NCBI RefSeq assembly: GCF_949628265.1
Contig: NC_088789.1
Span: 29,443,883 to 29,507,882, forward strand
Origin: Cloeon dipterum
Lineage: Eukaryota > Arthropoda > Insecta > Ephemeroptera > Baetidae
DNA length: 64,000 bases
Reading direction: 5' to 3'
The position numbers and the translations under genes were made by a program. The notes under the pieces are model-generated. The model saw only the letters and a program-made list of their open reading frames with translations, was not told the DNA's origin and ran no database searches. Numbering within the stretch: position 1 is the stretch's first letter; each line of letters opens with the position of its first letter. Shown in pieces: positions 424-45,124 of this stretch.

Positions 424-1214
424 GGTTTGCAGTGCATACGGAATCAAAAAATGTCAAAAATTTGTGGAATCATCAACAATTAATCCAAGGAATTGAGTAA
501 CATTTCTAATTATTTTAATCGTTTTTATATAACAACGCGTTCCCTCATATTTGTTACAGAAATGTTTTTCGATGGTAATTAAAAAATTTTTAAACGAGAA
601 ACCACTCTTTCATTTAATTACCTTCCTTTGAAAGATTATATTAATCACGTCTGGGTGTAGGAATGGAAGAGTGATTATGCACAATACTGGATGCCTTGAG
701 AAATTGCTTTCACGAATAAATTATCTCGACCAATTTGGTTTTCAATTTCCTTGCACTTGCTTATTTCGTAAAACTCTAAATCTGAAAATAATTCAAATTT
801 CATTTTTGAACTTTCAGAGGAGTAATTCTTTTTGTGTTTCTCACCTTTTTTTGCAATTAATGAATTGTATAATTATATTGAACTTCCACAAAAATGTGTT
901 TTTCCATCCATAAACTTGCTAGGATGATTGAAATGCTTAAAATCCGTTCTAATTTAAATTCGTGATATGATCACAGCAGAAATATTTAAATTTTCGTTGC
1001 TCCCAATACACAATATTCCGTGAGGAGAACTCAAGACACTGCATATTGAATTTCTTATTCATTTTTTTTTTTAAACATGTGCAGTTCAATTTTTAAAATT
1101 CCGGATTTTTACAGCAAATAACAAGCTCATGTTGAGAAATTCGGCATTCCTTGTGAGTCGCAGCTGTGTGAGATATGCGAGGGTTTAGATAATCGGTTCC
1201 TGTTAACTGCCAAT

Positions 1215-1550
1215 CGTCAGAGATGGAAAAAATGGTATAGTTAGTGGCTATTTGACTCAAAATATCTCAAATATTTATCACTGTATCAGCGAGACTGGGA
1301 GGCGCACCGGCGCCGACTCGCAAATTAATTGCTGGTTATTGCCTTTTTTCCAGCAAACTTTCAGGACAAATAAATGACTGGTGGTTTAATTGGTGGAACA
1401 ATAAAAAGGGCCTTAAAACGGGCCCAAGCTCCTCTGCGACCACTTTGGGCCCCATGTTATTATCTTGGCGATGTGTTTGGGACCCTACAGCCTACAATAA
1501 GTGCTGAGAAGAGGTTCTAAAATATTCGGTTGGTTTTATTGTTCAATATT
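1215..1550 (+). repeat. Dispersed repeat, diverged copy 1
   Basis: This stretch aligns with 1835-2138: both carry CAGA(G/T)ATGGAAAA at the left, a GAGCTGGGAGGCGC-like core, CAAGCTCCTCTG, GGGCCCATGTTAT-like and a right end reading TCGGTTGGTTTTATTGTTCAAT or close to it. Part of the core (AAGATGGCCAC, CAAGCTCC) recurs in inverse orientation near 36395-36515, so it looks like a dispersed non-coding repeat rather than a local tandem duplication. No terminal inverted repeat or poly-A tail was found, so the class is unknown. Confidence 0.6.
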
Positions 1551-1834
1551 TAATGCTGCCGTTTTATTTTACTGAATTTTTTTAAACTTTTATTTAATCT
1601 TATTACTTCAAGCAGAAGAGTAATAAAACATAAATGTTTTAACTTTGCATCCGGTGACCAATCTCATCCACCTTTTGTTAGTTTTAATGCGGATCAAAAA
1701 TATATACGCGCTAGACTGAAAAATATAAAAAATAAACCAGCCAATTGGCTCCCATTGTTTGTTAATAAGTTCTCAGAAGTGTCCAAGCATTGGAAGATAT
1801 TTGAGCAATTCAAAGATGTAATACTAGCTGCTGT

Positions 1835-2138
1835 ATGTCAGATATGGAAAAGGGTGGTTGGTTAAGTGACTCGAATTGATCAAATTGCTCAACGAGCTGG
1901 GAGGCGCATCGGCGCCGTCTCGCCACTCGCTGCTTTTCACGCCTTTCCGGTGGCTTTAGGGATAAAATGCGGGGAGGCGAAAAGATGGCCACATTTGGCG
2001 CAAGCTCCTCTGAGGCCACTCGGGCCCATGTTATCCACTCGGCGGTGTTATTGGGACGGGTGGGCTAATAGTCCACGGGATGTGCCGAGCAGAGGATTTA
2101 GAATAAAATGCGGTTGGTTTTATTGTTCAATTGTTTGA
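1835..2138 (+). repeat. Dispersed repeat, diverged copy 2
   Basis: Partner of 1215-1550, less AT-rich and apparently closer to the ancestral form. The right end (GGTTGGTTTTATTGTTCAAT) is shared. A 90-residue open frame crosses it, but the other copies do not keep that frame open, so I do not treat it as coding. Confidence 0.6.
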
Positions 2139-2989
2139 TATTTTTTCTTAATGCTCGAATGCCCGTTGGCGCACGCGTAGCGCGAATCGCGACAAATATT
2201 TGTTATTTTCCAATAATTACTTTCCATTCACATCATTTGATTCCCGCATGGCAACCCTGTGTCGCAGGCACAAGCGGAAGACACTTTATTGGGCCCGTTC
2301 GTCTGCTTTAATTAGCACGGAACGATGAAAACTCGGCGTTTTATGATGTTTAATGCTGCAGTAAGCAGTCAGGGTTCGCAAAATCCCACAATTTTTCAGA
2401 AAGACTTATTTTATTGCTAAACTCTTTTTGCGGGATTTGTGCAATTTTTTAATTGTTCCGAAACACACGCTTTTTTATTTTATATCAAAATTGGATGACC
2501 AAAATTAGAGATTTTTACCAAGTCAGCACAAAAGCTACTAGTTTCACACAAAGAAAAAATTTAATCACTTTTTGTAAATATCCCACATGCAAAATTTTAC
2601 CATTTTCGGGGTTAAATTAGGAAAACTAATTAAAAAAAATCCAAAACATTTTTCCAGCTGGTTTATTTTTGCGCAAAATTCAAGAACAATATCTAGATTT
2701 TGTTCTTGCGCTTATATGTCGGCGAATATTGCGCGAGAGTTTTTGCTCAGGCCTCTCCCGGCGCCGCTTTGCGTGCCAATTCCCTCTTTTGAACGCACTC
2801 TGCCAGACCAGCTAATATCGTTTCTAGCATTGCGCGTGCAGCTCTAATCCACTTCTTATTCGCAAAAGAGCCACTTGTGTAACAAAACGCTACTTTGCCA
2901 AAGGCACGAACTACAATTAATACACAAATTAAAGTGCTCTGTTTAATTTCCATTGAGAAGACGACAAATTTTAGTGTATCTCACAAAAA

Positions 2990-3131
2990 GACTTTTTAAG
3001 CCCGTTATAAATTTAAAACTTTCCCACCAAGTAGTTTTAAGGGACTGTTGAGTCACCGGAGAGTAGCGCTGCTGTCGCTAAGTCACCTGGAACCTTCTAT
3101 CTTTCATTTAAGTTCAGGTGGTTTGACTGAC
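2990..3131 (+). promoter_or_regulatory. Conserved promoter/leader of the ZAD-type zinc-finger genes
   Basis: A block beginning with a TATA-like CCCGTTATAAATTTAAA (near 3001) and running through GTCACCTGGAACCTTC, TCTTTCATT and TTCAGGTGGT to the start codon. The same block lies upstream of the relic first exon (5385-5548). Its downstream half also precedes the paralogues at 12580 (about 12495-12579) and 62921 (minus strand, about 62922-62990). Conservation in non-coding sequence between otherwise diverged copies suggests a core promoter plus 5' UTR. TCATTCAG is a plausible initiator. The exact transcription start is not determinable here. Confidence 0.55.
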
Positions 3132-4796
3132 ATGTCGTCTCAAAAGGCGCTGTGTTTGATTTGCGAGCTTCCGACGGCGGACGGTGCTGTCCTCGCTGTC
3201 CACGTGGACAAGGAGAAACTGCAGACTTGGTTTCTTAACGTCTGCGGACACGAGTTGGCAGAGGAAATCGAGGACGATGACCTGATTTGCTACTTTTGTC
3301 TCTGGCACGCCAAGTGAGTTCTTAAAAGGAATTCAAGGAATATACTTTTTAAATGAGAAATTTTATCTAAGGTTTCAATGGAAATTCGACGAAATGGCGG
3401 ACGAGAATTTGGTTTGGTGGAATTTGGATTTGGACGATGCAGCAAAAGAGCTGCGGAAACATTACTTCGGTAAGAGTGATACTTTTTATTTTTATTTTTT
3501 TTTAGTTTTTGTCTAATAATTGTGTTTTCAGAGGGAAATATAGAACAATGTTGGGTGCCATTGGAGGAGATCGATCTGCCCGAAAGTGAAGAAGAAGAAA
3601 TCGAAGATGATGAGGTGGATTCGGAATCTGAGAAACAGTCCAATATTTGTCCAGAAAAGAAAAAATGTCTCTACTGTGGTAAACGATTTACGCTATTGCG
3701 GAATTTGTCACATCATGTAAAGAAATCACACAAAAATGCCATTAGATGTGAAAACCATCAATGTGCCACATATTTTCACACAATCGAAGAAAGGGAACAA
3801 CACAATGAGGAAGTGCATGAAAAACCGAAAGAAAAGAAAACCTTCAAATGTGATTTTTGTTGCAAGGAATTCATTGGAAATAATCATATCAACATTCATG
3901 TTCGTCGTGTCCATGGTGAATATCCAGTCAAGTGCGCGTTTCATGGCTGCGTCTCGTTTTTCAAAACTGAAATTGAAATGAGGGCTCACTTTGACTCTGT
4001 TCACAAAACCAATGATTCAAAAATGATTGATTGTGAATATTGTGAATACAAAACAAGTATTAGACCTAATTTACAAAGGCATGTTTCCAGAAAACACAGA
4101 ACAGAAAAGCCATTCAAGTGTGACGAATGCGGTGCAATGTTCTCAACAAAAGATACTTTGGCAAGTCATTGTAGTTCAAAGCATAAATTCAAAAGCTGCA
4201 AATATTGTACATTAGATGTTTCTGTCGGTATTTATTTTAGGCATGTGAGAAAGCTGACTTGTGTTCGCTGTAAAAACGAATTCCATTGTTCAGGTTTGTA
4301 CCAATCTCACCTGAAAAAGTGCAGGAAAACTTTGTTCAAATGTTCCAAGTGCCCAAAGAGCTTTCAAATGCCTTCTTTGCTTGTGTACCACATGAAAAGG
4401 AAACATGGAAATCGCGAATGGCGTGGTTTGGAGCAAAAAGCTCTCGGATTCAAATGTGAACTCTGCAAAATGTACTACAAAAGTGCGAAACTCTTGAAAC
4501 AGCATTTAAACAGGACACACAACCAGTCCAAATTGAAGCATTGTGCCCATTGCCCTCAGAGTTTCTTTTCCATTTCTCATTTGATTAACCATCTTGCTCA
4601 GAAACATAATTTATTGGAGCTTGAATTTGAATGTGACGAATGCAAAAAACAGTTCATTTCCAAATGGTTTCTTTGCTCACATTTGAAATCAACCCATTTC
4701 AAAGACAAGATAAAAGAAAGTTGTAGAATATGTAGAAAATTAATGTTCAACTATAACATGAGAGCACACATGCTACTAATTCACGGTGTTCAGTAA
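3132..4796 (+). CDS. ZAD-like C2H2 multi-zinc-finger protein, complete, 3 exons
   Basis: Exons 3132-3313, 3372-3469 and 3532-4796 join in frame to about 514 residues. Residues 1-93 form a ZAD-like dimerisation module: CLIC near residue 8, then LICYFC near residue 51, the paired Cys2 arrangement of insect zinc-finger-associated domains, and a conserved LVWWNLDLDDAAKEL. An acidic linker (LPESEEEEIEDDE) leads to about 12-13 C2H2 fingers, two with a four-residue Cys spacing (IRCENHQC, VKCAFHGC) and one degenerate (KSCKYC, no second His). No signal peptide; basic and nuclear-type. Both splice phases are conserved in the paralogues at 12580 and 62921. Family knowledge: ZAD-C2H2 proteins are arthropod-specific transcription or chromatin factors that expand by tandem duplication. 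The target is unknown. Confidence 0.9.
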
Positions 4797-12494: not shown

Positions 12495-12579
12495 CCATAC
12501 CCTGAGACTGGCGCTGCAATCGCTACTAAGCCACCTGGAACCTTCCATCTTTCATTCAGGTTCAGGTAGTCTGCCCGAA
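12495..12579 (+). promoter_or_regulatory. Conserved leader of ZAD-type zinc-finger gene 2
   Basis: Contains CCACCTGGAACCTTC, ATCTTTCATTCAGG and TTCAGGTAGTCTG immediately before the start codon, matching the leaders of the other copies. The TATA-like half of the module seen at 2990 is not recognisable upstream, where the sequence is unrelated. The duplication therefore retained only the part from roughly the transcription start onward. Confidence 0.5.
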
Positions 12580-14134
12580 ATGTCGTATCAAAAGGCATTG
12601 TGCTTGATTTGCGACCTTCCAACGGCGGACGGCGCTGTCCTCGCTGTCCACGTGGACAAGGAAAAATTGGAGACTTGGTTTCTAAACGTCTGCGAGTACG
12701 AGTTGGCCGACGAAATCGAGGATCACGACGTGATTTGTTACTTTTGCGTCTGGCAAGCCGAGTAATTTCTTCAAAGGAATTCAAGAATCTTCTTTTTTAT
12801 ATTTGAGGAATTTTCCCACAGATTTCTTTGGGAATCTAATGGAATGTCAGACGAGTCTTTGATTTGGTGGAATTTGGATTTGGATGATGCGGCAACAGAG
12901 CTGCGGAAGCATTACTTCGGTAAAAGTGATATTTTTATTTTTTTGTTTTTGTCTAATAATTGTGTTTTCAGAGGGAAATATAGAACAATGTTGGGTGCCA
13001 TTGGAGGAGATCGATCTGCCCGAAAGTGAAGAAGAAGAAATCGAAGAGGATGAGGTGGAATTGGAATCTGAGGCACAATCCAATATTTGTTCACAAAAGA
13101 AAAAATGTCTCTACTGTGGTAAACTATATTCATATTCGCGCGATTTGTCAAAGCATGTTAAGAAATCACACAAAAATGCCATTAGATGTGAAAATCATCG
13201 CTGTGCCACATATTTTAACACAATCGAGGAAAGGGAAAATCACAACGAGGAAGTACATGAAAAACCGAAAATATTCAAATGTGATTTTTGTAGCAAGGAA
13301 TTCATTGGAAATGGTCATATCAACAATCATGTTCGTCAGGTCCATCATGAATATCCAGTCAAGTGCGCTTTTCATGGCTGCGTCTCGTTTTTTAAAACTA
13401 AAATTGAAATGAGGGCTCACTTTGACTCTCTTCACGATGATACAAATATGATTGATTGTGAATATTGCGAGTACAAAACAAGTATTAGACCTAATTTACA
13501 AAGGCATGTTTCCAGAAAACACAGAACAGAAAAGCCATTCAAGTGTGACGAATGCGGTGCAATGTTTTCAACAAAGGGGACTTTGGCAAGGCACAGTAGT
13601 TCAAAGCATAAATTCAAACGCTGCAAAATTTGTAAATTAGATGTTTCTGCAGGCCATTATACTATACACATCCGAAAGCTTACATGTTATCGCTGCAAAA
13701 ACAAGTTTCAATGTTCAGGTTTGTACCAGTCACACCTGAAAAAGTGCAGAGAAACTATGGTCAAATGTTCCAAGTGTCCAAAGAGCTTTCAAATTTATTC
13801 TTTGCTTGTTTACCACATGAAAAGGAAACATGGAAATCGCGAATGGCGTGGTTTGGAGCACAAAGCTCTCGGATTCAAGTGTGAACCCTGCAAAAGGTAC
13901 TACAAAGGTGCGAAACTCTTGAAACTACATTCTTACAGGATGCACATTCAAGCCAAATTGAAGTACTGTGCCCATTGTCAAAAGAGTTTCTATTTCACTT
14001 ATCTTTTGAAAACCCATCTCGCCGTAAATCACAATTTGTTGACACTTGAATTTGAATGTGATGAATGCAAGAAACGGTTTATTTCAAAATGTTTTCTCAG
14101 CCGTCATATCATGCTATCACATTTAAGAGATTAA
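12580..14134 (+). CDS. ZAD-like C2H2 multi-zinc-finger protein, complete, 3 exons
   Basis: Exons 12580-12761, 12822-12919 and 12972-14134 join in frame to about 480 residues. The first two exons have exactly the same lengths as in the 3132 paralogue (182 and 98 nt). ZAD-like module: CLIC near residue 8, VICYFC near 51, then LIWWNLDLDDAATEL. An acidic linker and about 11-12 C2H2 fingers follow. The finger beginning KRCKIC lacks a normal second His pair, as in the paralogues. The protein ends at SRHIMLSHLRD, one finger shorter than the 3132 copy. The third exon is strongly similar to the 3132 gene (long identical runs such as the KTSIRPNLQRHVSRKH finger), suggesting recent duplication or conversion. 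Role: nuclear DNA-binding factor of unknown target. Confidence 0.9.
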
Positions 14135-15523: not shown

Positions 15524-18500
15524 ATGTGCTGGTTATGGACTGGAAATTTCCGAAATTTCGCCTGCCTTGCATTGGCAGCGTTCGCTTTATGCGCCGCACA
15601 GGTACTGAATCGATCGATGTAATTTTAAAATTAAATCTGATGATTTCGGAAGTTTGGACAGGTTGAGATGTCGAAGTCTAAAGGTATGCGTGGCTTTTTC
15701 ACTATATATACGCTTGGATTTTATTAAATCAAAGGCAACCGAAACTTCATCATAAAATGCTGCGGACGAAATTCCTGCTTAAATGTACCACCGAAACGAG
15801 CGAATCGCACATTGGTTACACGAACTACGCAATCTGCCAAGCCCGTTCTGAGCTTGTCCTCGGTATTTTCCATCAAAAGAACCACCTCAAGCCCAGATGG
15901 AAATATCGTCATGGAGAGCACAGAAGCGCCGACGCTCGAAGACACGGATACGGAGGCCACGATAGAAATAACAGAAAAAGTCAATACAATTATCCAGACT
16001 GAATCCCAGCAATCGCAAACGGTATGAATTCTTGCGTTTCTTCAAATATTAAAATTATTTATTCAATCAATCAGTCGGCGTTCACTGAAATTTTGAGTGG
16101 AAAAATAACCTCAAGCCCCTCTTCATCGGGATCATCTAAAAATTCTGAAAACACAGTAAAGGAGGTGACAAGCACTGTGGTTCAAACCAACTTCATTTCT
16201 ACGGAAAAGATTTTGACAAGCACTGCCTCCTTGGAAACCGTCTCAACAGACTCAACAATCAATGCCCTGCTCTCAACAAGCTCAATCTCAAGCAATACAA
16301 TCTCGACTAAAACAGCATCAGAAAATAACACCACAGGCAGCAACTCAATCAGCACAGCTCGGAGCAACGACGGAACATTGACAACCACAAATCCATCATC
16401 AGTCAGCACGTCAAGCTCCGATTTTCAGGGAACTATCAGTAATAGTGTTGCGCCAGTAACAGATAAACCTGTAAATTTAATGATTTCCGAAAACAGCAGA
16501 AAAAATTAATTTCTTAATTTTCCAATGTCAGATTATCATCTACAGTTGCTCTAGTTTAACTTGCTTGAAAAATAACTCCCTTTTTGACAGGGATGGAGTT
16601 CTAATAGGTAATATTAAAATTTAATTATTAAAATTTTTAATAAAATAATTTCAATATAGACTCTAAAACCTATGGCTCGTGGAGGGAAGTCTGCGGGGAA
16701 CTCTATCTCTTTGGAAAATCGATTGTACGTCATTGGAAATCATCACATTCCGAAATTTTTATTTATATTTAAGGTCACTTGGGAGGAAAACGTGAAGAGG
16801 TGCTGCAGCATTGGAATGAAACCAATAGCGTTCGAAACCTTTGACCAATTTAACTGCCTTAAAAAACTAACCACGCGTACGAGATCTTAAAATTTAATCG
16901 TTTTATTTTTTAACAATTCGTGACGAAACAGAGGAAGTGTGGAAGTACAGCTCCAACTACTGGACAGCCGCACGTCAAGTGTGGTCGAATGATTTGTTTC
17001 AGTGGTGTTCGCACAGCCCACCTGACACCTTCGCCAACCTCACGTCGATGTGGGCCAAAGGGTTTCCAGACAACGCGAATAGCAAGTATTGTGTCCATCT
17101 GTCCGTCCCAAAAACCGAGCTGACAGAAAAGAACTGCTCATTCAAGTTTATTTTTTCGTGCAAAGTAATGCTCAAATATCATATTTTTGCTTTTAATTAT
17201 TAAATTTTGAAAATATGATTAGGGATCCCCCACGCCTGCACCACGTTGCTTCACTCCACTCTGCCCTAAAGATGCTTGCATCAAAAATGTAATTAATTTT
17301 TGAACCGAAGGGAAAAATTTATTTAATTATTTTGTATTAAAGGATGCTTTATATTCGCCTGGACTGGACAATGTGACCAAGTTCCTAACAAGTACGTGAT
17401 TTCACTAGCATGTAGTCTAAAAATATATTTTGCCGGGAAGAAACGAAAAATGGCATGAAAATATGGTGAAGCGCTGTAAATGTTTAAGAATGTTATGGAG
17501 AAAATTTCTTTTGATTGTTATTTTATAGCACAATTAGAGTGATTCTGTTTATAAAACAATGCCCACTCAATCCAAATTGGACACTGCTCATGTAATATAT
17601 GTACATAAAATGAAGCAAAATATTCGAAAAATCCCAAAATCACAGTAAATTATATAGAGAATGTTAACTGGATATTAAATTTTCTTTCCTCCAAATGGAT
17701 GTATTTGAGAATTTATACTGCATTCTTCTCTAATAGGGCCTACGCAGTACGGACTTTGGAAGAGCATGAATTACCGCGTATACATGTTCAGCAAAGATAG
17801 TAAAACGGTAAATTTTTGTGTGACTCAAAATGAAACAATTTATCTAGCCGCAAAATCAAAATTATATTTCAGTGGAATGAAGCGGCAAAGACCTGCTGCT
17901 CAATTGGAATGAAGCTCTTGAGTCTAGACGCAGATTTTAAATACACTGTCCTATCTCAAGTCTTAGGTCCCTTAAATATAAATAATAAATCAGGATTTCT
18001 TTTTAAATTTGTATGTATGTAAATTACAACAGGTGAAGATAGCGCTTCTCTCTCAGCGAAATTTTGGACGTCGGGCACAGACAACGGCTGTCCCGGAGCA
18101 TTTGGGTGGTGCGCCTCCAACAGACTGGTCAGAGCGCCGATTTGGGCTCCAGGAGATCCTCGGATCGGCAATTATTGCGTTATTGCTGACGTCACGAGCT
18201 CCAGCACCTCGCTCATGACATTGGATTGCGGTGCGACTCTGCGATTCATTTGCGAAGTATTTTTCTTTTCTTTATTATGAAAATAGAAACAATTGAATAT
18301 TATTTTAAAGACAAGGGACACGAGCAACTCCACGTCTGGAGGAGATGCAATTAAGGACGAGTGTGCCTCCAATTTTAACATTTCTATCGGTTTGACCTAC
18401 ATTTTGGTTATAAAAAATTGTTTTTATCTTCTATGCAACAGCCGAGCAGGACAAGATATTCAACAGCACTTCCTTCAACGCAAAAATAAAGGTTTTGCCT

Positions 18501-19175
18501 CTATATTAATTGTAGATTATGAATATATTGTATTGTTTAAGTGTTTCTTGAGATGTTTGGGCGAGTTTGGAGGAATGGTAATAAAAACAAATATAAGGGA
18601 ATGATCAAAATAAAATTAAGACATTTCTTAAGGTTGTGAATGGCCGCATCGTGGATGAGCAACTAATTAAAATGGCCGAGGCCTTGTCAAAGAATGATGA
18701 GGCGAAATTAATGAAGAATTTGGAAGCTGTGGACGAGTGCTCCAATTTAAGTGAGCGTGATTTAAAGATTTCTAAATAATTAAAGGGAATGAAATCACAG
18801 AGGGAATGGATGAGTGCGACACGATAGCCAGCGCCTATCAGTGCGGACAGGAAAAAGCACCGGATTTAATTGCGAACGCGATCAAAGCGGTGGAGCTGAA
18901 CAGCACAGGGGTATAGAAAACAAATTAATTGTTTGAGACGGGGATAATAAAATAAATTTTAGGAAAGTTCACCTCTGCAACCAATTTTGGGTCAATGCAT
19001 CACTGATTTCGATTGCACAATAGACGTAATAACCGATATATAATAAAAAATGCAGAAATTTTCTGAACAGTTTTTAATTACTCAGTCGGGCTGGAGCAAG
19101 GCGTTTCTAACAAGAGGCTGGCAAACCGTCTTATCTTTAACTGATATTTGCTTTCTTAAATTAAATTTGAAATGA
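15524..19175 (+). CDS. Mucin-CTLD-CTLD-OBP protein, copy A (CTLD3 lost)
   Basis: Twenty exons join in frame to about 769 residues. Signal peptide (WTGNF, CLALAAFALCAAQ) in exon 15524-15601. Residues 27-261 carry a short Cys-containing segment (IIKCCGRNSC) and a Thr/Ser-rich mucin-like stretch. CTLD1 at about 262-420 (KRCCSIGMKP, NYWTAARQ, KYCVHLSV, FIFSCK). CTLD2 at about 430-588 (KTCCSIGMKLLSL, FWTSGTDNGCPGAFGWC, NYCVIADV, LRFICE). OBP domain in exons 14-18, about 589-719, with C-x25-C-x3-C-x42-C-x8-C-x8-C, the classical insect pattern. After exon 19 (18963-19025) the donor kept in the sisters is altered, and the frame ends at 19175 beyond SGWSKAFLT. CTLD1 and CTLD2 lack EPN/QPD, so calcium-dependent sugar binding is doubtful. 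Likely secreted; ligand unknown. Confidence 0.85.
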
Positions 19176-19179
19176 ACAG

Positions 19180-19392
19180 TTACGTACGGCGTTATTCTGG
19201 ATATTTGCGGCAGGCGCTATCACTTGGGACTTAGTAATGTATAACTATTCTACTCAAATTAAAAGATAAACTTTTAAATCCTGTTTGGTCAATAAAGTCT
19301 ACATTTCGCGATGGTTCAACTTGGTGTTGTACGTACGGATACTTCCTAGAGGAAACGGATAATTACAATTCAGCATTTGGGCTGGGATAAAA
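19180..19392 (+). pseudogene. Residual CTLD3 exons of copy A
   Basis: Sequence matching the exon VILDICGRRY (about 19182-19236) and the start of the next exon (from 19298, TFRDGSTWCC) of the sister genes. At about 19338 it jumps into sequence matching the 3' UTR of copy B near 24777 (GGGCTGG(G/A)ATAAAAATT). The exon coding for the main lectin fold of CTLD3 has been deleted. It could still be spliced as a short altered tail, but no good upstream donor remains. Confidence 0.65.
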
Positions 19393-20279: not shown

Positions 20280-23200
20280 ATGAGCTCGCTACGGACGGGA
20301 AATTTCGGCTGGCTCGCGCTGGCAGCTTTCGCTTTGTGCGCCGCACAGGTATGCTGAATATTTTACATGTTCATTATTATTTTGATGAAAAAATGAATAA
20401 TTTTAAGTTTGGACTGGTTGAAATGATTAAATCTAAGAGTATGGGTAGCTATCATTGCGTATTTTTATAATTTAATTTTTATCCAAATAAGGCAACCGAA
20501 ACTTCATCATAAAATGCTGTGGACGAAAATCGTGCATAAATTTACCACCGAAACAGTTAAATCGCACTTTGATTACACGAATTACGCAATCACAACAGCC
20601 GACTTTGAGCTTGTCCTCAACATTTTCCATCAAAAGAACCTCAAATCTGGACAAGGTTAGCACAGAAGCAGCAACAACTGAAGACGCTGCTACCGAGGCT
20701 ATGCTGGAGATAACAAACAAAGGCAATTCAACTTCTCTAGAATCGCAAACAGAGGTATTAATTGTTACGAGGCGTCAAATTATTAAAACTGTTGTGAATT
20801 TTTAGTCCACTTTTAGCAAATCGGATTTATCTAGTGACCAAACGATTACAAATACTGCCGATTCAGCACACCAGAACTCGAAAACGGTGTGCTATTACAT
20901 TATTACGAGGCTTATATTAATAAAAACAATTCAAATTTTTAGTCAGCTATTAGTGGAACCGATTTATCTACTGACAAAATGATAACAAACAACGGCGATT
21001 CGGCAACCCTGAAGCCGCAAACGGTGGCATTTATTGTTTCGAGGCTTGAAATTAAAAATAAAAAATGTACAATTTTTAGTCAACTTTTAGCAGAATAACG
21101 GATTTCTTGAGGGACCAAACGATAACTTCTCCAGTAAATACTGTCACACAGACGACGACAAGCTCGACCGTTCTTCCAACTAACTTCATTTCAACCTCAA
21201 CTAAGAAGATTTTGACAAGCACTGTCCTCATAAAATCCATTCCTACAGCCTCATCAACAGAATTAAAAACAACTAATTCAGGCTCGATTAAATCGACTAC
21301 TTCAGTATCTCAAATTTACACAACACGCACAATTACGAGCACTGGGACAACAACAACAAGTCCATCAACAGTCACATTAACTATTAATTATCAAACAACC
21401 TCGAGAACCACCAGTCTTGCACCAATAACGACGACCAATCCGGTAAATTTATAGAATGTTTTCTTATTTTATTGAAATGTTTCTCAATTCAATGCCAGAA
21501 TACAATCTACAGTTGCTCTAGTTTATCTTGCTTGAAAAATAACTCCCTCTTTGACAGGGATGGAGTTCTAATAGGTAGCATTAAAATTTAATTTTTATTG
21601 ATTAAAATAATATTTTCAATTAAGACGCGAAGACCTATGGTTCGTGGAGGGAAGTCTGCGGGGAACTCTATCTCTTTGGAAAATCGATTGTACATCATTG
21701 GATATCTTCACATTCCAATATTTTCATTTAAATTTTAGGTCACTTGGGAGGAAAACGTGAAAAGGTGCTGCAGCATTGGAATGAAACCAATAGCGTTCGA
21801 AACCGTTGACCAATTTAATTGCCTTAAAAAGCTAACCACGCGTACGAGATCATAAAATTCATCAATAATCGATTTAATTCTTAACAAATTTTTGACGAAA
21901 CAGAGGAAGTGTGGATGTACAGTTCCAACTACTGGACAGCCGCTCGTCAAGTGTGGCTCAATGATTTATTTCAGTGGTGTATGTACAGCCCACCTGACAC
22001 CTTCGCCAACCTCACCTCGATGTGGGCAGAAGGATTTCCAGAAAACTCAGCTGACAAGCTTTGTGTCCACCTGTCTTTCCCGAAAACCGAGCTTACCGAG
22101 AGGAGATGTGACATTAAATTCGTTTTCTCGTGCAAGGTATTTTTTTAGCTAAAGATATTACAAATTTTTTAATTTATTTGCTTTTTTGAAATTTAAGGGT
22201 GTCCCAACCCCTGCTCCGCGATGCTTTACTCCAACCTGCCCAAGAGATGCGTGTATTAAAGATGTATACAGAAACGATTCTTTGCTATTGCGCTAGGAAG
22301 ATTTTAATCAGTTTCCTTTATCTCAAAGGACAATTTATATTCGCCTGGACTGGATAATGTGACCAGATTCCTAACAAGTATGTAAATTAAAGGCCATGAA
22401 TGTAAGCAAAAATTTTAATGCGTATGCTAATGAGATAGGATAATATTAAGGATTAATATAAATAAACTAAAGGAGAATTTGCTAATTACAATAATGACAG
22501 CAAGTTTTTTAATTGCTTGGCAAAATATTCCAATACATAATTCCAAAGCCTACAAGCAAAAGAGAATTTTGAAAGGAAACTCAAAATATTTTTTAGAAGT
22601 ATTTCATCACGGTGTTTTTATATTTTTCCAATAGGGCCTAATCAGTACGGACTTTGGAAGAGCATGAATTACCGCATGTACATGTTCAGCAAAGAAAGTA
22701 AAACGGTTGAATTTTTGTGTGACGCAAATTGAAACATTTGATCTAATGGCAAAACTAAAAATGTTTCAGTGGAATGAAGCGGGAAAGACTTGTTGCTCAA
22801 TTGGAATGAAGCTCTTGAGTCTGGACGCAGATTATAAATATTCTGTCCTATCTCAAGTGTTAGGTACCTTAAATATAAATAAATGACGCATTTTTTTTTA
22901 AATATTATAACATGTATGAATTATAAAAGGTGGAGATAGCGCTTCTCTCTCCGCGAAATATTGGACGTCTGGCACAGACAACGGCTGTCCCGGAGCATTT
23001 GGCTGGTGCGCCTCCAACAGACTGGTCAGAGCGCCGATTTGGGCTCCAGGCGAGCCTCGGATCGGCAATAATTATTGCGTAATTGCTGACGTCACAAGTT
23101 CAAGGACCTTGCTGATGACATCGGATTGTGGTGCGGCTCTGCGATTCGTTTGCGAAGTATTTTTTTATCTCCTAGTATGAAAATAGAAACAATTGAATAT

Positions 23201-24752
23201 TATTTTAAAGACGAGGGACACGGTTAACTCCACGAATGCTGGAGATGCAATTAAGGACGAGTGTGCCTCCAATTTCAACGTTTCTATCGGTTTGACCTAG
23301 ATTTTGGTTCTGAAATTTTATTATCTATGTTGCAACAGCCGAGCAGGACAACATATTCAATAGCACTTCCTTCGATGCCAGGATAAAGGTATTGATTTCC
23401 TTTTTACTGTTAAGATTGTGCCAGTAAAATTCTAATTCTTTTTAGTGTTTCTTGAGATGCTTGGGAGAAAATGGAGGGATTGTAATATACATTGCTTTTA
23501 TTAGTTATATGGATTTTTTGCTATTCAATGAGAAAGTTGACCTCACTTAAAAAATCTCCAGCAAATAGTCTTAACTTTTAGTGTGTCGATTGAAATATAT
23601 TTCATTTTCTTGAGTTCAAATACTACGTACAGTTACAAACAAAACTATTTAGCTGTAAATTAAAAAATTACGCCTTTTTTGTAAGGTTCTCAATGGCCGC
23701 ATGGTAGATGAGCAACTAATTAAATTGGCTGAACTCTCGTCACAAAATAACGAGTGGAAATTGATTAAGAATTTGGAAACTGTGGACGAATGCTCCAATT
23801 TAAGTGAGCTCGATTTAAAGATTTCTAATTAATTAAAGTGGATGAAATCACAGAGGGAATGGATGAGTGCGACACGATTGCCAGCGTGTTCCAGTGCGGA
23901 CAGGAAAAAGCACCGGATTTAGTTGCGAACGTGATCAAAGCGGTGGAGCTGAACAGCACAGGAGTAAAAAAGAAAATACTGGCGTGAGACGTGGCTGAGA
24001 ATTTGTGATTATTTTAGGAAATGTCACCGCTGCAACCGATTTTGGGTATATGCATTACTGATTTTGAGTGCATTGCAGATGTAAGTGCTTGTAAGAAAAG
24101 GCAATCATTTTATAACCAAAACTTTCTCTCAGCCTGGCTGGAAAAACGCATTTCTGACAAACACCTGTAAAAAGATTTAATTATTTTCCTAGGCAATTTT
24201 TTTAATTTCAATTTTAAAATGAGAAGCTTCTACGGGTGTTATTCTGGACATTTGTGGCAGGCGCTATCAATTGGGATATCAGAAAGTATCACAACTATAC
24301 ACTGACATTAAACAAATATTTATAAAATCTATTTGGTCAATGAAGTCTACATTTCGCGAAGGTTCATCTTGGTGTTGCACATCCGGTCTCTCAATGGCTT
24401 CTATTGAAACGATCGAGGAACTCCAGTGCATAGTGTCAGCCACGTTAGGTATAAATTTTATTATTCTTACACAAAAGGACCATTTGATTCTTTCCTTCAA
24501 GGCGACATCGTAAGGCCGGAGAAAATCTGGACTTCTGCCTCGAGAAAAGGGACAGTTAGCGGCTTCAGGTGGTGCTCGTCCAGAGTCCCTCTGAACTATT
24601 CCACGTGGAATTGGCACCCGGACATTAACAAAAATCCAGCAAACCATATAATGACGATAAATCTTGGGGCCACAATCCAAGATACATATTTTGAAGCTGA
24701 TTCTGCCGAGGCTTCAGTTGCAAGACCGTTTTGCGAACTGCAAACTGTGTAG
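20280..24752 (+). CDS. Mucin-CTLD-CTLD-OBP-CTLD protein, copy B
   Basis: Starts at MSSLRTGNFGWLALAAF (signal peptide, exon 20280-20348) and ends with exon 24502-24752. Same module order as copy A but with three features more: two extra 27-residue exons in the Thr/Ser region (20805-20886 and 20942-21024) repeating the pattern of the start of the main mucin exon (21080-21442), and an intact CTLD3 (VILDICGRRYQLG, WCCTSGLSMASIET, IWTSASRKGTVSGFRWC, WNWHPDINKNPA, PFCEL). OBP cysteines are all kept (DECASNF, CFLRC, DECSN, DECDTIASVFQC). CTLD2 reads GEPRIGNNYC at the position of EPN. Extracellular. The combination suggests a ligand-binding OBP core held in a lectin-like, heavily O-glycosylated scaffold (inference). 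Confidence 0.83.
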
Positions 24753-25557: not shown

Positions 25558-28500
25558 ATGAGCTCGCTACGGACAGGAAATATCGCCTGGCTCGCGCTGG
25601 CAGCTTTCGCTTTGTGCGCCGCACAGGTATACTGAATATTTTACATGTTCATTATTATTTTGATGAAAAAATTAATAATTTTAAGTTTGGACAGGTTGAA
25701 ATGTTTAAATCTAAAGGTATGGGTGGTTATCATTGCGTATTTTTATAATTTAATTTTTATCCAAATAAGGCAACCGAAACTTCATCATAAAATGCTGTGG
25801 ACGAAAATCTTGCATAAATTTACCACCGAAACGGTTAAATCGCACTTTGATTACACGAATTACGCAATCACAACAGCCGACTTTGAGCTTGTCCTCAAGA
25901 TTTTCCGTCAAAAGAACCTCAAGTCAGGACAAGGTTAGCACAGAAGCAGCAACAACTGAAGACGCTGCTACCGAGGCTATGCTAGAGATAACAAACAAAG
26001 GCAATTCAGCTACCCTAGAGTCGCAAACAGAGGTATTAATTGTTACGAGGCATCAAATTATTAAAACTATTGTAAATTTTTAGTCCGCTTTTAGCAAATC
26101 GGATTCATCTAGTGACCAAACGATTACAAATACTGCCGATTCAGCACACCAGAACTCGAAAACGGTGTGCTATTACATTATTACGAGGCTTATATGAATA
26201 AAATCAATTCAAATTTTTAGTCAGCTATTAGTGGAACCGATTTATCTACTGACAAAATGATAACAAACAATGGCAATTCGGCATCCTTGATGCCGCAAAC
26301 GGTGGCATTATTTATTGTTTCGAGGCTTGAAATAAAAAATAAAAAAAATGTACAATTTTTAGTCAACTTTTAGCGGAACGGATTTATTGAGGGACCAAAC
26401 GATAACTTCTACAGTAAATACTATTACACAGACGACGACAAGCTCGACCGTTCTTCCAACCGACTACATCTCAACCTCAACGGAGAAGATTTTGACAAGC
26501 ACTGATATTTCTACAGTCTCATCAACGGAATTACGAACCACTAATTCAGACTCAACTAAATTGACTACTTCAGTATCTGAAATTAACACCACACGCTCAA
26601 TTACGAGCAGTGCGACAACAACAACAACAACAACAACTCCATCAACAGTCACATCCACTATTAATTATCAGACAACCTCGACAACCACCAGTCTTGCACC
26701 AATAACGACGACCAATCCGGTAAATTTATAGAATGTTTTCTTATTTTATTGAAATGTTTCTCAATTCAATGGCAGAATACAATCTACAGTTGCTCTAGTT
26801 TATTTTGCTTGAAAAATAGCTCCCTCTTTGACAGGGATGGAGTTCTAATAAGTAGCATTACAATTTAATTATTGAAATTTTTAATAAAATAATTTCAAAA
26901 AAGACGCAAACACCTATGGTTCGTGGAGGGAAGTCTGCGGGGAACTCTATCTCTTCGGAAAATCGATCGTACATCATTGAATATCGTCACAATCCCAAAA
27001 TCTTATTTGAATTTTAGGTCACTTGGGAGGAAAATGTGAAAAGGTGCTGCAGCATTGGAATGAAACCAATAGCGTTCGAAACCTTTGACCAATTTAATTG
27101 CCTTAAAAATCTATCCATGCGTATGAGATCATATAAATTTGATCGTTTTAATTTTTAATAATCCGTGACGAAGCAGAGGAAGTGTGGAAGTACAGCTCCA
27201 ACTACTGGACAGCCGCACGTCAAGTTTTGCGCAATGATTTATTCCAGTGGTGCTTGTATAGCCAAACTGAGCGGTTAGCCAACCTCACCTCGATGTGGGC
27301 CAAAGGATTTCCAGAAAACGCGACTCGCAATTATTGTGTCCACCTCTCTGTCCCAAAAACCGAGCTGACAGAAAAGAACTGCTCATTCAAGTTCATTTTT
27401 TCGTGCAAAGTAATTCTTTAATTGCATATTTTTGCTTTTAATTATTAAATTTTCAAAATATGAATAGGGATCCCCCACGCCTGCTCCACGTTGCTTCACT
27501 CCAGTCTGTCCTAAAGATGCTTGCAGCAAAGATGTAATTAATTTGTTTCGAGAGGAAAATTTATTTAATAATTTTGTATATATTGAAGGATGCTTTATAT
27601 TCGCCTGGACTGGATAATGTGACCAGGTTCTTAACACGTACGTAAATTAACAGCTATGCATGTAGTAAAAAAAAGTAAATTGTTTTGGTAAGAACAGCGG
27701 TCTCCCAAACTAAATACTAAAAATATTAAATCACTAGTTTGGAAATACCTCGACGAGGAATCGAAAAATTAATATTAAAATGTATAGTCGGTCAATCGCT
27801 TTCAATGTTGGAGAAGTAGATAAAATTGAAAATTTTCTGTTGCAAAAGGTTTTCTTTAGAATTTTATACGTGGCATAAATAGAACTTGTTTGTTAAAATT
27901 AATCAATGCACCCGATCATTCCGATCTATAATACATAAAACGCGTTAAACTATTCCAAAAACGCCATATGACGATTTTTCCTAACAGAGCCTACACAGTA
28001 CGGACATTGGAAAAGCATGAATTACCGCGTTTATATGTTCAGCAAAGGAAATAAAACGGTTTGAGCTTTCTGTACCTTAAAAAATAAAATTTTAGTTAGT
28101 CAAAACCAAAATCTTTTCAGTGGAATGAAGCGGGAAAAACCTGTTGCTCAATCGGAATGAAGCTCTTGAGTCTGGACGCCGATTTTAAATACACTGTCCT
28201 ATCTCAAGTGTTAGGTACCTTAAATATAAATAATAAAGGCATTTTTTAAATTTTATAACATGTGTATGAATTTTAAAAGGTGAAGATAGCGCTTCTCTCT
28301 CCGCGAAATATTGGACGTCGGGCACAGACAACGGTTGTCCCGGAGCATTTGGCTGGTGCGCCTCCAACAGACTGGCCAGAGCGCCGATTTGGGCTCCAGA
28401 GGAGCCTCGGATCGGCAATTATTGCGTAATTGCCGACGTCACGAGCTCCAGCACCTCGCTCTTTACATCAGATTGCGGAGCGACTCTGCGATTCATTTGC

Positions 28501-29935
28501 GAAGTATTTTTCTTTTCTTTATTATCAAAATTGAAACACTTGGATATTATTTTAAAGACTAGGGACACGAGTAACTCCAGGAATGCAGGAGATGCAATAA
28601 AGGACGAGTGTGCCTCCAATTTCAACGTATCTATTGGTTTGACCTAGATTTTGGTTCTGAAATTTTATTATCTTTTGTGCAACAGCCGAGCAGGACAACA
28701 TATTCAACAGCACTTCCTTCAACGCAAGAATAAAGGTTTGTCCTCTATATTAAGACTTTGTAGATTATAAATATATTGTATTGTTTAAGTGTTTCTTGAG
28801 ATGTTTGGGCGAGTTTGGAGGAATGGTAACAAAAACAAATGTAAGGAAATGTTCAAAAATAAATTAAGACATATCTTAAGGTTGTGAATGGCCGCATCGT
28901 GGATGAGCAACTAATAAAAATGGCCGAGGCCTTGTCAAAGAATGATGAGGCGAAATTAATGAAGAATTTGGAAGCTGTGGACGAGTGCTCCAATTTAAGT
29001 GAGCTTGATTTAAAGATTTCTAAATAATTAAAGGGAATGAAATCACAGAGGGAATGGACGAGTGCGACACGATTGCAAGCGCCTATCAGTGTGGACAGGA
29101 AAAAGCACCGGATTTAATTGCGAACGCGATCAAAGCGGTGGAGCTGAACAGCACAGGGGTATAGAAAACAAATTAATCGTGTCAGACAGGGATAATAAAA
29201 TACATTTTAGGAAAGTTCACCTCTGCAACCAATTTTGGGTCAATGCGTCACTGATTTCAATTGCACAATGGACGTAATAATATATTATTAAAAATGCAGA
29301 AATTGTCTGAACAGTTTTTAATTACTCAGCCGGGCTGGAGCAAGGCGTTTCTAACAAGAAACTGTAAAAATTTAATTTTCCTTAACAATTTTTTAAAATT
29401 TAATTTTAAAATGTGAAGTTACTTGGGGTTTTATTCTGGATATTTGTGGCAGGCGCTATCACTTGGGACTTAGTAATGTATAACTCCAATTAAAAGATAA
29501 ACTTTTAAATCCTATTTGGTCAATAAAGTCTACATTTCGCGATGGTTCAACTTGGTGTTGTACGTACGGTCTCTCGATGGCCTCTATTGAAACGATCGAG
29601 GAACTTCAGTGCATAGTGTCAGCCACGTTAGGTAAAAATTTGATTAATCTAACACAATAGGACCATTTCATTCTTTCCTTCAAGGCGACATGGTTAGGCC
29701 GGCGAAAATCTGGACCTCGGCCTCGAGGAAAGGGACGCTGGACGGCTTCAGGTGGTGCTCGTCCAAAGCTCCTTTCAACTATTCCATGTGGAACTGGCAC
29801 CCGGACATTAACAAAAATCCAGCCAACCCCATAATGACGATAAAACTTGGAAACACAATCCAAGATTCGAGTTTTGAAGCTGATTCTGCCGAGGCTTTGG
29901 TTGCAAGACCGCTTTGCGAACTGCAAACTTTGTAG
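25558..29935 (+). CDS. Mucin-CTLD-CTLD-OBP-CTLD protein, copy C
   Basis: Signal peptide exon 25558-25626 (MSSLRTGNIAWLALAAFA), last exon about 29686-29935 ending CELQTL. All modules present: the Thr/Ser region with the same two extra 27-residue exons as copy B and a run of ACA/ACT codons near 26615, CTLD1 (NYWTAARQVLRNDLFQWC), CTLD2 (FWTSGTDNGCPGAFGWC), six-cysteine OBP domain (about 28559-29159) and CTLD3 (WCCTYGLSMASIET, IWTSASRKGTLDGFRWC). The 5' third is almost identical to copy B, whereas from about exon 9 to the OBP exons both exons and introns match copy A, so the gene is a mosaic. Extracellular, function inferred only. Confidence 0.83.
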
Positions 29936-30956: not shown

Positions 30957-33900
30957 ATGAGCTCGCAATGGACACGAAATTATTGGCTCCTAGCGCTTAC
31001 ATTTCTAGCCATCTGCATTGCACAGGTTGGTACTTCATTTTTATATTAAAATAAATTACATTCTTAGCTAATTCCTTACCTTTTAACGCTTGTCAGGTTG
31101 AAATGGTAAAGTATAGAGGTTTGTGCACCCTCAAAAAGCTACTGCTAGATTGATAGTATTAATTTTTAAACTAGGTAATCGGAAGTTCATCATAAAATGC
31201 TGCGGACGAAAGTCGTGTTCGAAACTGCCTCCGAAAAAAGCAAACCGCACAATTATCACGCAATCAACCAAACCGAGTTTGATTTCCACCTCACCATTTT
31301 CGACTGAAAGCTCAGATGAAATTGTGGAAAACAGTTCTGAAGGTCCAAAAACTGTGGAAAGCAAATTGCAGCCGGAAACAGTGATCATTCGTATGTATCG
31401 CCATTTCTTTTTACTTTCCGTTAAGATTTGATAGTGGAAAGTTACAAAGGTAAAAACGCATATTAAGCAATAAAACTTGTGTACTTTTAAGATAATTAAA
31501 TAATGCTGCTTTAAAAGCTTAAAATTAAAAATTAGGTGAGCAGCACAACGAGTCACTTAGTGATTCTTAAAAAAATGAAGTTTATTTATCCAAACACCTC
31601 AAAGATTTATTTTTACTCTCTCTCCTATTTTGAAATTTTTTTAACACACCAAAGGAATTTTAATCAATTAAAAATGCAGTATTAAAGGAAAAGCCTTAAT
31701 GATGAATCTGTCAAAATGTTCCATAACATTTTTAAATTCAAATATTAGAAAGGAAATTTTTGTTTTGATGAAAAAAATTGATCGATGTGTTGTAAAGAAA
31801 CAACCCTGAGTTCTCTTGATATAGTCAGATTTTACTCCTCTGGATTTTTCAAATGACAAGGAAAAACCTAATGATACAGAATCCACGGGAACGACTGGAA
31901 CTACAATGGAGACAACAACTTGGACCAACGTCGTCTCGACAGATATGCTTGTGACGAACCTCGTCACCACTGGTTCAACATTTGCAACCTCATCATTGTC
32001 AGTCTTGGAAACTTGGACTACCGACACAATGACCACAACTCCATCATCTACAACACCTCGTCCTGTATTTTATTTAAACATAATGCAAAACAAATATGAA
32101 TTTTTGTGATAGCCCGGCATGCTCTACAGTTGTTCAGATCTATCTTGCGTGAAAAATATCTCGCTCTTTGACACTTACGGAGTGCTTAAAGGTACTTTTA
32201 AAAATCATGGTATTTATTTTTTAAAAACTAAGCATGGAAAATAAAGATGCGAGAAAATACGGTTCATGGAGGGAAATCTGCGGAGAGCTCTATCTTTTCG
32301 GCAAATCGATAGTACTGTACATTTTGAGAAAATTCCCAGTTATAAAATTTAAACCCTAGGTCACGTGGGAAGAAAACGCAATGAGGTGCTGCGCCATTGG
32401 GATGAAACCGTTAGCGTTCGAAACCAGCGCTAAATTCGACTGTCTGCAAAATTTCATCAAAGGTAAACGATTTTTTAAGTTTTAGTCGCGCTGCATCAAG
32501 CGTTTGACGTCACAGCGGAAGTGTGGCAGTACAACTACAACTACTGGACGGCCGCACGGCAGATTTTCGCCAACAACTCGTTCAACTGGTGTCCCTATGA
32601 GACCGACGGCTCTTTTGCCAATCTCACCTCGATGTGGGCCACCGATTATCCAGGAAAAGAGGGTGGCGATCTTTGCATCCACATGTCTGTTCCGCGAAAT
32701 AAAAACCTGACCGAGATCACCAAGAAAAACTGTTCAAACCTCTACATGTTTTCGTGCAAGGTGAGAATTTTTACTTTTGGACAGACTAAATTGGTAAATT
32801 TAGGGAATGACGACACCGGCTCCACGTTGTTTCGCTCCCGCCTGCCCTCAAGATAAATGCAGCAAAAATGTATTAAATATTTTAACTAAAGAACCTCTTT
32901 TTAATATTTTTTCACAAAAGGATGATTTATTTTCTCCTGGAATAGACAATGTCACCATGTTTCTTACAAGTGCGTGGAGATTTCTTTAAATTATGAAAAT
33001 AAAAACATTTAAATACAGATCCTGCGCAGTATGGGCTTTGGAAAAGCATGAATTTCCGTATTTTCATGTTTAGTCGTGAATTCAAAACAGTAATTTTTTT
33101 AGATAAATAAAGAAGCAATAACATTTTATTCCATTTGTTAGTGGGACGACGCGAGAAGAACCTGTTGCTCCATAGGAATGAAGCTTTTGAGCCTGGATGT
33201 CGCTTACAAATACTCTGTCTTGTCCCAAATTGCAGGTAAATTTCCAATTTTATTAAAATCTACCCTTTTTTAACCAATTCAGCCGTTGTCTCGCATTGTT
33301 GAGCGCATAATATGCTTTGCATGCACCACGTTGCAATGTTTTGGGGCAAGTAGTTTGTTCACCATGTATTTTTACAAAAAAAAAAGACAAAAATTTAAAT
33401 ATTGAACTTTTATCTTGTTGAACACGAAGAGTTTTATCATTTAATTGCTGATTGTAAATATTCTTTTGACGCATCGATCGTAAAAGGGGAAGATAGTGCA
33501 ACCCTCAATGCGAACTTTTGGACGTCGGGCACAGAAAACGGTTGCCCTGGAGCGTTCGGCTGGTGCGCTGAAAACAAACTGGTCAGGAATGCGATGTGGG
33601 CCAGAAACGAGCCTCGCAACGGTAGCCACTGCATCGCAGCGACTGTCAGCAGCACAAACACGACGCTGATGACTGCAGATTGCAGACTAGCTCTGCGGTT
33701 TATTTGTGAAGTATGTGCTTTAGTTTAGAATAATTTTTTTATTTAAATTTCGAGTAGACCAGGGACACGAGTAACTCTACGAGTAAAGGCGAGGCCATGA
33801 AGGACGAGTGTGCAACCAATTTTAACGTTTCAATCGGTTTGAATAAACAAAATTTGGCTTACAGTCAGGAATAAAAATAATTAAAATATATTTAGATGAG

Positions 33901-35295
33901 CAGGACAATATTTTCAACAGCTCATCTTTCAGTGCGAAGATCAAGGTTTGACTCAAATAAAAGTCTTGAATACTCTTGAATAATCTCTTTATTTAATTTT
34001 TTTTGCATGCAGTGTTTCTTGAAATGTTTGGGCGAGACTGGAGGAATTGTAAATATAAACTATACTGTCGTGTTTAATTCTTATGTTAATTGTTGTATGC
34101 AACAAAAAGTTCAATTTATTTTTTAAAAATTTTTGAAACTTGAAAAAAATCCACATTTAAGGTACTTGATGGTCATGTTGTGGATGAGCAACTGATAAAA
34201 CTGGCCGAAACCTTATCACCAAATGACGACGCACAACTGAAGAAAAATTTGGAAGCTGTCGACGAGTGCTCCAACTCCAGCAAGTTTAATCCAAAATGAC
34301 TCAAAAACAAACTTTCAAAATTAAGATATTAACAAATTATTTTCTCACTGCTTGATAGGGCGACGAAATATTATGTTCCAGTATTATGTAAATGATTTTT
34401 CACAGAGGGAATGGATGAGTGTGACACGATAGCCAACGTTTTCCAGTGTGGACAGGAAAAAGCGCCAAACCTTGTGGCGAACGTAATCAACTCGATGGAA
34501 ATGAACAGCACCGGAGTTGTAAAATAAAATTATTTTCTAGATCCACTCATATTACAATTCCATAACTAGGAAAAATCACCTCTGCAACCGGTGCTGGGCG
34601 AATGCATTGATTATGAATGCATCATTGACGTAAGCTGAACTACATCAGTAAAAATTATGAAAATTTACGAATAACTTAAAATTTCACAGCCAGTGTATAG
34701 CGATCTGTATTTGAATGCTAACTGTAAATTTATTGAACATTTTTCTCAAACAAAGTAAAATACATATTTTGCTTTTTGTTTAATAGTTTCGCATGGAACT
34801 GTTCTGACTATTTGTAACAAGCGCTATCTCTTGCGGAATGATTTTGTAACAACTGAAACTAGTTCAAAAACCGAATTTTGACTAATTAAAAGACATAAAC
34901 AGCTCTCATTCGGAGAAGCCGCATCTTGGTGTTGCATGTATGGGGTTCGTATTGTTTCGATCGAAACAGTTGAGGAACTGCAGTGCATTGTGAATTCACC
35001 CCTGGGCAGGTTTAAAATAACTAAACCGATAAACTGTCTAAAATATTTTTTAGGTGGAATAACCCGACCTGAGAAAATATGGACATCAGCATCGAGGAAA
35101 GGAACAATCACCGGCTTCCGATGGTGCACGTCCAGAGTGCCGCTAAATTTTTCAATGTGGAAATGGCAGCCAGACATAGAGAAAAACCCGGAAAAACCAA
35201 TAATGACTCTAAACCTCTCAAACACGTTGGAAGATTCGTATTTTTTTGCAAGCTCTGCTGAGGGTGACGTCGCTTTACTTCTTTGCGAGCTGTAA
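30957..35295 (+). CDS. Mucin-CTLD-CTLD-OBP-CTLD protein, copy D (most diverged)
   Basis: Signal peptide exon 30957-31025 (MSSQWTRNYWLLALTFLAI). Exon 31175-about 31391 keeps IIKCCGRKSC. The Thr/Ser exon (about 31845-32064: TWTNVVSTDM, TTTPSSTTPRP) is shorter and lacks the repeats of B and C. CTLD1: RCCAIGMKPLAFE, NYWTAARQIF, FMFSCK-type end. CTLD2: TCCSIGMKLLSLD, FWTSGTENGCPGAFGWC, NEPRNGSHC. OBP cysteines conserved (DECATNF, CFLKC, DECSN, DECDTIANVFQC). CTLD3 ends GFRWCTSRVPLNF...LLCEL. The intron between the last two exons has no GT donor in the expected phase: either a GC donor (CTGG/GCAGGT, near 35004) or retention, since the intron is open in frame. About 900 bp from the start of the ankyrin array. 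Confidence 0.82.
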
Positions 35296-40559: not shown

Positions 40560-40870
40560 TTTGACAGATTTTTAATTGAAATAAAACGAGAAATTTTGCA
40601 AATAATGTTTGTTGCCTGTGATTCTCCACTCACCATCTCGGTGGCAAGGATGTGGTCGCAAACCTGAGCCTGCAGGGTGTTGTTGTCGAAGAGGTGACGG
40701 TGATCTTGCCCTCGAGCGAGCAGGCGCAGCCGTTGGGCGGCGTTTCGTACATTGGGCAACGCAGGATGCACTTTGTTCCCTCCACCCCGGTGACCACGGT
40801 CGTATTCTTTACCAACTCACCCTCTCACTCGGGCGCAGGTGTAGTTGTTAGCGGTACAGGACAAAAAAAC
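40560..40870 (-). pseudogene. Unrecognised GC-rich exon fragment, copy 1
   Basis: A GC-rich island in AT-rich DNA. On the minus strand one frame reads CILRCPMYETPPNGCACSLE and KITVTS with GC-ending codons; the neighbouring frame then continues FDNNTLQAQVCDHILATEM up to a splice-donor-like GTGAGT at 40633-40628. The switch of the best frame around CCTCTTCGACAAC is the same in the copy at 47600, so the break predates the duplication. It resembles an exon of a Cys-containing extracellular protein, but I do not recognise the family. It has travelled with the ankyrin units (also at 45125 and 47600). Confidence 0.5.
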
Positions 40871-45110: not shown

Positions 45111-45124
45111 CTATTGAATCTCAC

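Follow-up and report, generated by a model that had tools for sequence, protein, structure and literature searches.

The gene array

The window, by which we mean the whole stretch of 64,000 nucleotides of Cloeon dipterum DNA that was analysed, contains four tandem plus-strand genes, copies A to D, which together span 15.5-35.3 kb. Their exon boundaries, phases, and products come from hand-built models that were then checked. Copies B, C, and D share one domain order, consisting of a signal-peptide-like start, a CCG module (a short IIKCCGxxSC motif after the hydrophobic start), a Ser/Thr-rich stalk, a first C-type lectin-like domain (CTLD1), a Cys/Pro linker, a second such domain (CTLD2), an odorant-binding protein (OBP) domain, and a third lectin-like domain (CTLD3), the whole region of which is present in all three copies. 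The modelled features are the following:

15524..19390, plus strand: copy A, 22 modelled exons; layout as in copies B-D through the OBP, CTLD3 truncated
16660..17164, plus strand: CTLD1 of copy A, exons 6-8 (gene model; family CTLD1 against CTLD2, profile-profile probability 99.75)
17737..18256, plus strand: CTLD2 of copy A, exons 11-13 (gene model; PF00059 on the equivalent region of copies B and D)
18311-18389, 18442-18491, 18542-18577, 18633-18750, and 18801-18910, plus strand: OBP exons 14-18 of copy A (gene model; six-cysteine spacing)
20280..24752, plus strand: copy B, 25 exons, 924 aa; OBP exons 23211-23963
24018..24752, plus strand: CTLD3 of copy B plus its lead-in (profile-profile match with CTLD2; CTLD-like strands in the copy D model)
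25558..29935, plus strand: copy C, 25 exons, 918 aa; OBP exons 28558-29158
30957..35295, plus strand: copy D, 23 exons, 808 aa; OBP exons 33758-34518; corresponds to LOC135942891

A sequence-only reading of this DNA had proposed the order signal peptide-mucin-CTLD-CTLD-OBP-CTLD, with continuous splice phases through the whole of copy A. The order holds in copies B, C, and D, with a start that is best called signal-peptide-like, and does not hold in copy A, where CTLD3 is truncated. The continuity of splice phases breaks down past the OBP, as exon 20 of copy A has lost its GT donor (the model assumes a GC donor instead) and exon 22, the last one, is short and reaches a stop after 30 aa, so that the greater part of CTLD3 is absent. 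This end of copy A has decayed, and an intact copy A was rejected because of the truncation.

Across the 91 modelled introns, the donor is GT in 88 and GC in three, with an AG acceptor in every case; copy B has lost the usual acceptor of exon 2, and its model uses instead an AG that lies nine bases upstream and keeps the frame. Each of copies B, C, and D has 38 cysteines. The Ser+Thr fraction of the stalk is 0.41-0.47 in copies A-D, and the stalk is probably O-glycosylated. No membrane anchor was seen among the hydrophobic windows of copies A-D, given that the strongest of these are N-terminal in all four. Copy D is 100% identical to LOC135942891 of C. dipterum over residues 382-650, the region searched, and its database model (P0001) differs from the hand-built one in part of the stalk and at one CTLD3 splice.

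The rest of the window holds other repeated genes. Copies of what look by eye like C2H2 zinc-finger genes flank the array (1-4700, 12550-14130 on the plus strand, and 61380-62950 on the minus strand), and two older database models, P0003 and P0004, apparently fuse an N terminus of this kind to lectin-OBP genes. On the minus strand, four to five units are repeated in tandem at 37240-54500 (repeat families D1-D6 and D15-D16), by eye ankyrin-repeat-like genes and apparently in part incomplete, with inverted repeat arms that are 95-96% complementary at 36760-37033, 44370-44643, and 52678-52849. A 1.26-kb element at 50476-51733, bounded by 20-bp terminal inverted repeats and flanked by an 8-bp target duplication (TACATAAT), resembles a non-autonomous hAT transposon, and a paralogous stretch near 43.43 kb appears by eye to be an empty site. 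An Rfam search gave no matches.

Identity of the domains

The OBP of copy A lies at 18311..18910, in exons 14-18, exactly where the sequence-only reading had placed it, and the spacing C-x25-C-x3-C-x42-C-x8-C-x8-C on which that assignment was built is found in all four copies. Its expectation of a match to the PBP_GOBP profile (PF01395, cut-off 22 bits) was also borne out in both proteins scanned, copies B (32.6 bits) and D (41.4 bits), as well as in three of three excised OBP domains (45.8 bits for copy D, 42.7 for P0014, and 42.2 for P0027). In both copies B and D, Pfam called the OBP and CTLD families on the same protein, and Lectin_C and PBP_GOBP were the only families called. Searched against the PDB, the OBP sequence matches 5dic (E 1.8e-8) and ASP1 (E 8.6e-5), and the ten matches with E up to 1 comprise eight named odorant- or pheromone-binding proteins, AGAP010489-PA, which we take to be a mosquito OBP, and one unrelated protein (E 0.57). 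The six cysteines are invariant across 20 aligned rows from two genera, Cloeon and Neocloeon. A chance occurrence of the six-cysteine spacing was rejected on the strength of the Pfam score, the PDB matches, and this conservation. As a control, the family profiles were run on 26 window pieces outside the array, none of which gave a CTLD match of at least 15 bits or an OBP match of at least 8 bits.

An AlphaFold2 model of P0001 built on a 20-row alignment (mean pLDDT 71, pTM 0.59) has seven helices at residues 506-623, with block pLDDT values of 70-84 that drop to 59 at the extreme end; it also contains three CTLD-like regions, with C-type lectin-like strands at CTLD3. The OBP is probably still a six-cysteine helical domain. 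The first rows of a Foldseek search with the whole model belong to the mannose-receptor family (E from 3.5e-12; TM about 0.14 and rmsd about 20 Å or more). No OBP chain is among the matches listed for the whole model, whose rows are filled by CTLDs; therefore, such searches are silent on the OBP fold. A single-sequence model of P0021, made without an alignment, had a pLDDT of 32 and was useless.

CTLD2 is a clear CTLD, both by Pfam, where it exceeds the cut-off for PF00059 (Lectin_C, 22.6 bits), and by fold. The Lectin_C check proposed earlier thus succeeded for this domain and fell short for CTLD1 and CTLD3 of copy D, which score 12.3 and 15.2 bits; CTLD1 of the relative P0014 reaches 26.4 bits, and CTLD3 of the relatives P0012 and P0008 gives no match to PF00059. 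When family profiles are compared with that of CTLD2, the probability is 99.75 for CTLD1, 98.2 for CTLD3, and 0.19 for the OBP. An exact EPN or QPD motif is absent from CTLD1 and CTLD2 of copies A-D (P0001 standing for D), and in the aligned set it occurs in five of 21 CTLD1 and eight of 23 CTLD2 sequences. Because the window copies have no such motif in these two domains, sugar anchoring by them is doubtful, and so, judging from the motifs, is calcium-dependent sugar binding by their CTLD1 and CTLD2.

One gene or two

The sequence-only reading had described a complete OBP embedded in multi-CTLD proteins, and this is supported by the Pfam calls of both domains in copies B and D, by the family-wide pairing described below, and by junctions that lie within one exon. 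The alternative, in which independent CTLD and OBP genes are adjacent and have been wrongly joined by gene prediction, seems to us highly improbable. Mistaken joins do exist in automatic models, since P0003 and P0004 seem to bear the N termini of zinc-finger genes, and in the window copies, CTLD2 and the OBP are separated by an intron. However, this intron is 47-54 nt long in copies A-D, and the OBP has no signal peptide of its own; no separate OBP start was seen in these copies, whose first OBP exon lacks a hydrophobic stretch. Moreover, identical domain order is found in two genera, and there are paralogs in which the end of the CTLD and the start of the OBP share a single exon. Among 16 paralogous CTLD exons examined, five (L065, L066, L067, L069, and L079) form one open exon from the CTLD end to the first OBP cysteine, and in L083 a stretch opens inside the CTLD end and continues without a frame change to the start of the OBP. 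For the window copies and the other 11 paralogous exons, the open frame stops near the CTLD end, which is where an intron is expected. The one-exon junctions are the strongest argument for a true fusion; they already contradict the separate-gene alternative, and the idea of a neighbouring-gene artefact was rejected because of them.

A large family in Cloeon and Neocloeon

The genome (190.1 Mb in 10 contigs) was searched with two queries, the OBP and the segment from CTLD2 to the OBP start. For the first, 129 of the matches listed (176 in all) were used, after rows confined to the first OBP exons and a few others had been set aside; for the second, 141 of the matches listed (186 in all, from 150 scored of 542 candidates) were used, after short partial rows had been set aside. 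The family count is therefore a lower bound. The 129 OBP rows correspond to at least 114 OBP-exon loci, including the four window copies, and among the matches listed, all 114 have same-strand CTLD coding ahead of the OBP. In 81 of the 114 loci, again among the matches listed, this is a scored CTLD exon no more than 2.5 kb upstream, whereas the same 2.5-kb test gives 0 of 114 downstream and 0 of 114 on the opposite strand. For the remaining 33 loci, a profile scan found a CTLD upstream of the OBP in 32 (the weakest at 19.9 bits), and in the last one, L083, a reading of the exon showed that the end of a CTLD shares its frame with the start of the OBP. The second query added at least 32 further loci, scored on the OBP start alone, in which the CTLD runs into the OBP start in one stop-free frame; 91 of the 141 rows used match into the OBP start, 72 of them without a stop. 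The total is at least 146 loci, distributed in 50 groups (neighbours less than 60 kb apart), of which 25 are single.

A CTLD precedes the OBP in 60 of 64 overlapping 3-kb loci, the exceptions being L001, L064, L059, and L006. The last of these has both domains, and its 3-kb cut ends short of the CTLD that the 2.5-kb upstream test paired with it. L001 and L064 have OBP exons with no convincing CTLD nearby and are candidate stand-alone OBPs, while L059 is a multi-CTLD gene in which three CTLDs follow one another and its 3.3 kb contains no OBP match, possibly resembling the partner that preceded the fusion. A fused-type OBP was used as the genome query, which biases the search toward fused genes over stand-alone OBPs. 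Run against the whole genome, PF01395 finds only one place at E 0.001 and four at E 10, since the domain is divided among several exons.

Protein searches, which reached close relatives only, returned 33 relatives, 22 from Cloeon and 11 from Neocloeon triangulifer, several of them partial models. Both Pfam labels (Lectin_C and PBP_GOBP) are present in 22 of 30 relatives and in none of three shorter ones, and the six-cysteine OBP pattern is present in 31 of the 33. The order is thus seen in another insect genome, as the sequence-only reading had suggested looking for, namely in Neocloeon, where models are full length. A Cloeon subgroup (P0025-P0029) seemingly has one more CTLD upstream. A tree of the 31 relatives with the OBP pattern implies five changes between Cloeon and Neocloeon, at least three of them forced by well-supported branches; therefore, several fused paralogs probably predate the split between the two genera.

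Selection and probable exchange between copies

Compared with copy D, the OBP has a dN of 0.135-0.138, the lowest of the compared domains, and a dN/dS of 0.10-0.13, against a dN of 0.23-0.28 and a dN/dS of 0.13-0.25 for CTLD1 and CTLD2. Among copies A, B, and C, the dN/dS of the OBP is 0.15-0.25, and for the A-B pair the OBP has a higher dN (0.094) than either CTLD1 (0.083) or CTLD2 (0.051). CTLD3 is relaxed, with a dN/dS of 0.47-0.63 in comparisons with copy A and 0.43 between copies B and C. By these ratios, the OBP is under purifying selection. Genomic identity is mosaic, with copies B and C 95-96% identical at the 5′ end and copies A and C 95-96% identical across the OBP, a pattern that gene conversion or unequal exchange would be expected to leave.

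Published repertoire and possible function

Copies A-D are members of a large mosaic-protein family of baetid mayflies, and the order of the domains, their fusion, the size of the family across the genome, and the purifying selection on the OBP can all be read from the DNA itself. OBPs have generally been regarded as small carriers that move freely, and arguments about terrestrial and aquatic smell have been built on comparing their numbers between insects. PMC7250882 describes 191 OBP genes in C. dipterum, called the largest repertoire, which are largely nymphal, 82 of 167 being expressed in gills; its main text never uses the word "lectin". Just 10 OBPs of 135-252 aa are reported in the mayfly Parafronurus youi (PMC13205551) and just four in a damselfly, with a warning that OBPs are hard to find (PMC5381652). 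No paper listed in our literature search describes a CTLD-OBP fusion, in line with the remark in the sequence-only reading that no protein with this domain order was known to it. Since the at least 146 fused loci are of the right number, most of the published 191 OBPs are probably lectin-OBP fusions, and the published nymphal and gill-expressed genes would then be the fused ones. We lean slightly toward the fuller proposal that most of the 191 are such fusions and that they are a baetid-mayfly innovation for matrix-held odorant or lipid binding, used to sense or trap waterborne chemicals. If the record mayfly count consists mostly of OBP domains in lectin-like mosaics, cross-insect comparisons need redoing, and the account of sensing by gills acquires a concrete, testable molecule. 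The family also offers a natural experiment on how an OBP domain behaves once it is fixed in a larger protein.

The best explanation as a whole, to which we give about an even chance, is that these proteins are secreted, matrix-held binders of hydrophobic ligands on nymphal surfaces. Their secretion is suggested by the hydrophobic start and the absence of any other strong hydrophobic stretch. The lectin-like domains and the stalk could hold the protein in a matrix of mucus or cuticle on the head and gills of nymphs; at these exposed surfaces the OBP would bind small hydrophobic ligands, and a binder tethered in this way would not be washed away in water. Of the possible uses, we rank external chemical sensing first, with defence close behind. 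The earlier idea of a scaffold-anchored carrier is plausible, while simple sugar anchoring is counted against because the sugar motifs are degenerate in the window copies.

It is also possible, to a clearly smaller degree, that the family serves humoral or mucosal defence, with the CTLDs and OBP recognising microbes or binding microbial lipids and the family diversifying as immune lectins do. The CTLD sequence matches are insect and vertebrate lectins (mosGCTL, CD209, and mannose receptor), the family loci are clustered in tandem, segments of copies A, B, and C form a mosaic such as gene conversion would produce, and the nymphal expression clusters of PMC7250882 are also enriched for defence response. 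Nevertheless, the OBP has the lowest dN against copy D, which is not what a diversifying recognition site would have (the A-B pair excepted), and PMC7250882 describes the OBP-expressing gill cells as HRP-positive, which counts against defence if those genes are the fused ones. An unlikely reading is that of a structural mucin or cuticle protein in which the OBP is a stable helical spacer that binds nothing; the Ser+Thr content of the stalk and the degenerate sugar-binding motifs of the window copies would suit it, but the purifying selection on the OBP and the invariance of its six cysteines in all aligned rows of both genera argue against it.

Comparison with known systems

With classical insect OBPs (PBP/GOBP, PF01395), the mayfly domain shares the six-cysteine spacing, a Pfam score above cut-off, sequence matches to solved OBPs, and an all-helical prediction. 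Classical OBPs are small and stand alone, whereas the mayfly OBP has no start or signal peptide of its own and has CTLDs on either side. Dimer or two-domain OBPs and D7 salivary proteins do place OBP-superfamily domains in longer secreted proteins, in which the OBP is duplicated, but to our knowledge they carry no CTLD. The mannose-receptor family (MRC1, MRC2/Endo180, PLA2R, and DEC205), which supplied the first Foldseek rows, has CTLDs in series as well; in contrast to its members, the mayfly proteins have no membrane anchor that we could see and have an OBP between CTLDs, and Pfam called no CysR or FN2 domain of that family on copies B and D. Among insect C-type lectins, immulectins have multiple CTLDs, and the mosquito mosGCTLs, also CTLD proteins, provide the best PDB sequence matches; to the plan of these lectins, the mayfly proteins add an OBP, a Ser/Thr-rich stalk, and the CCG module.
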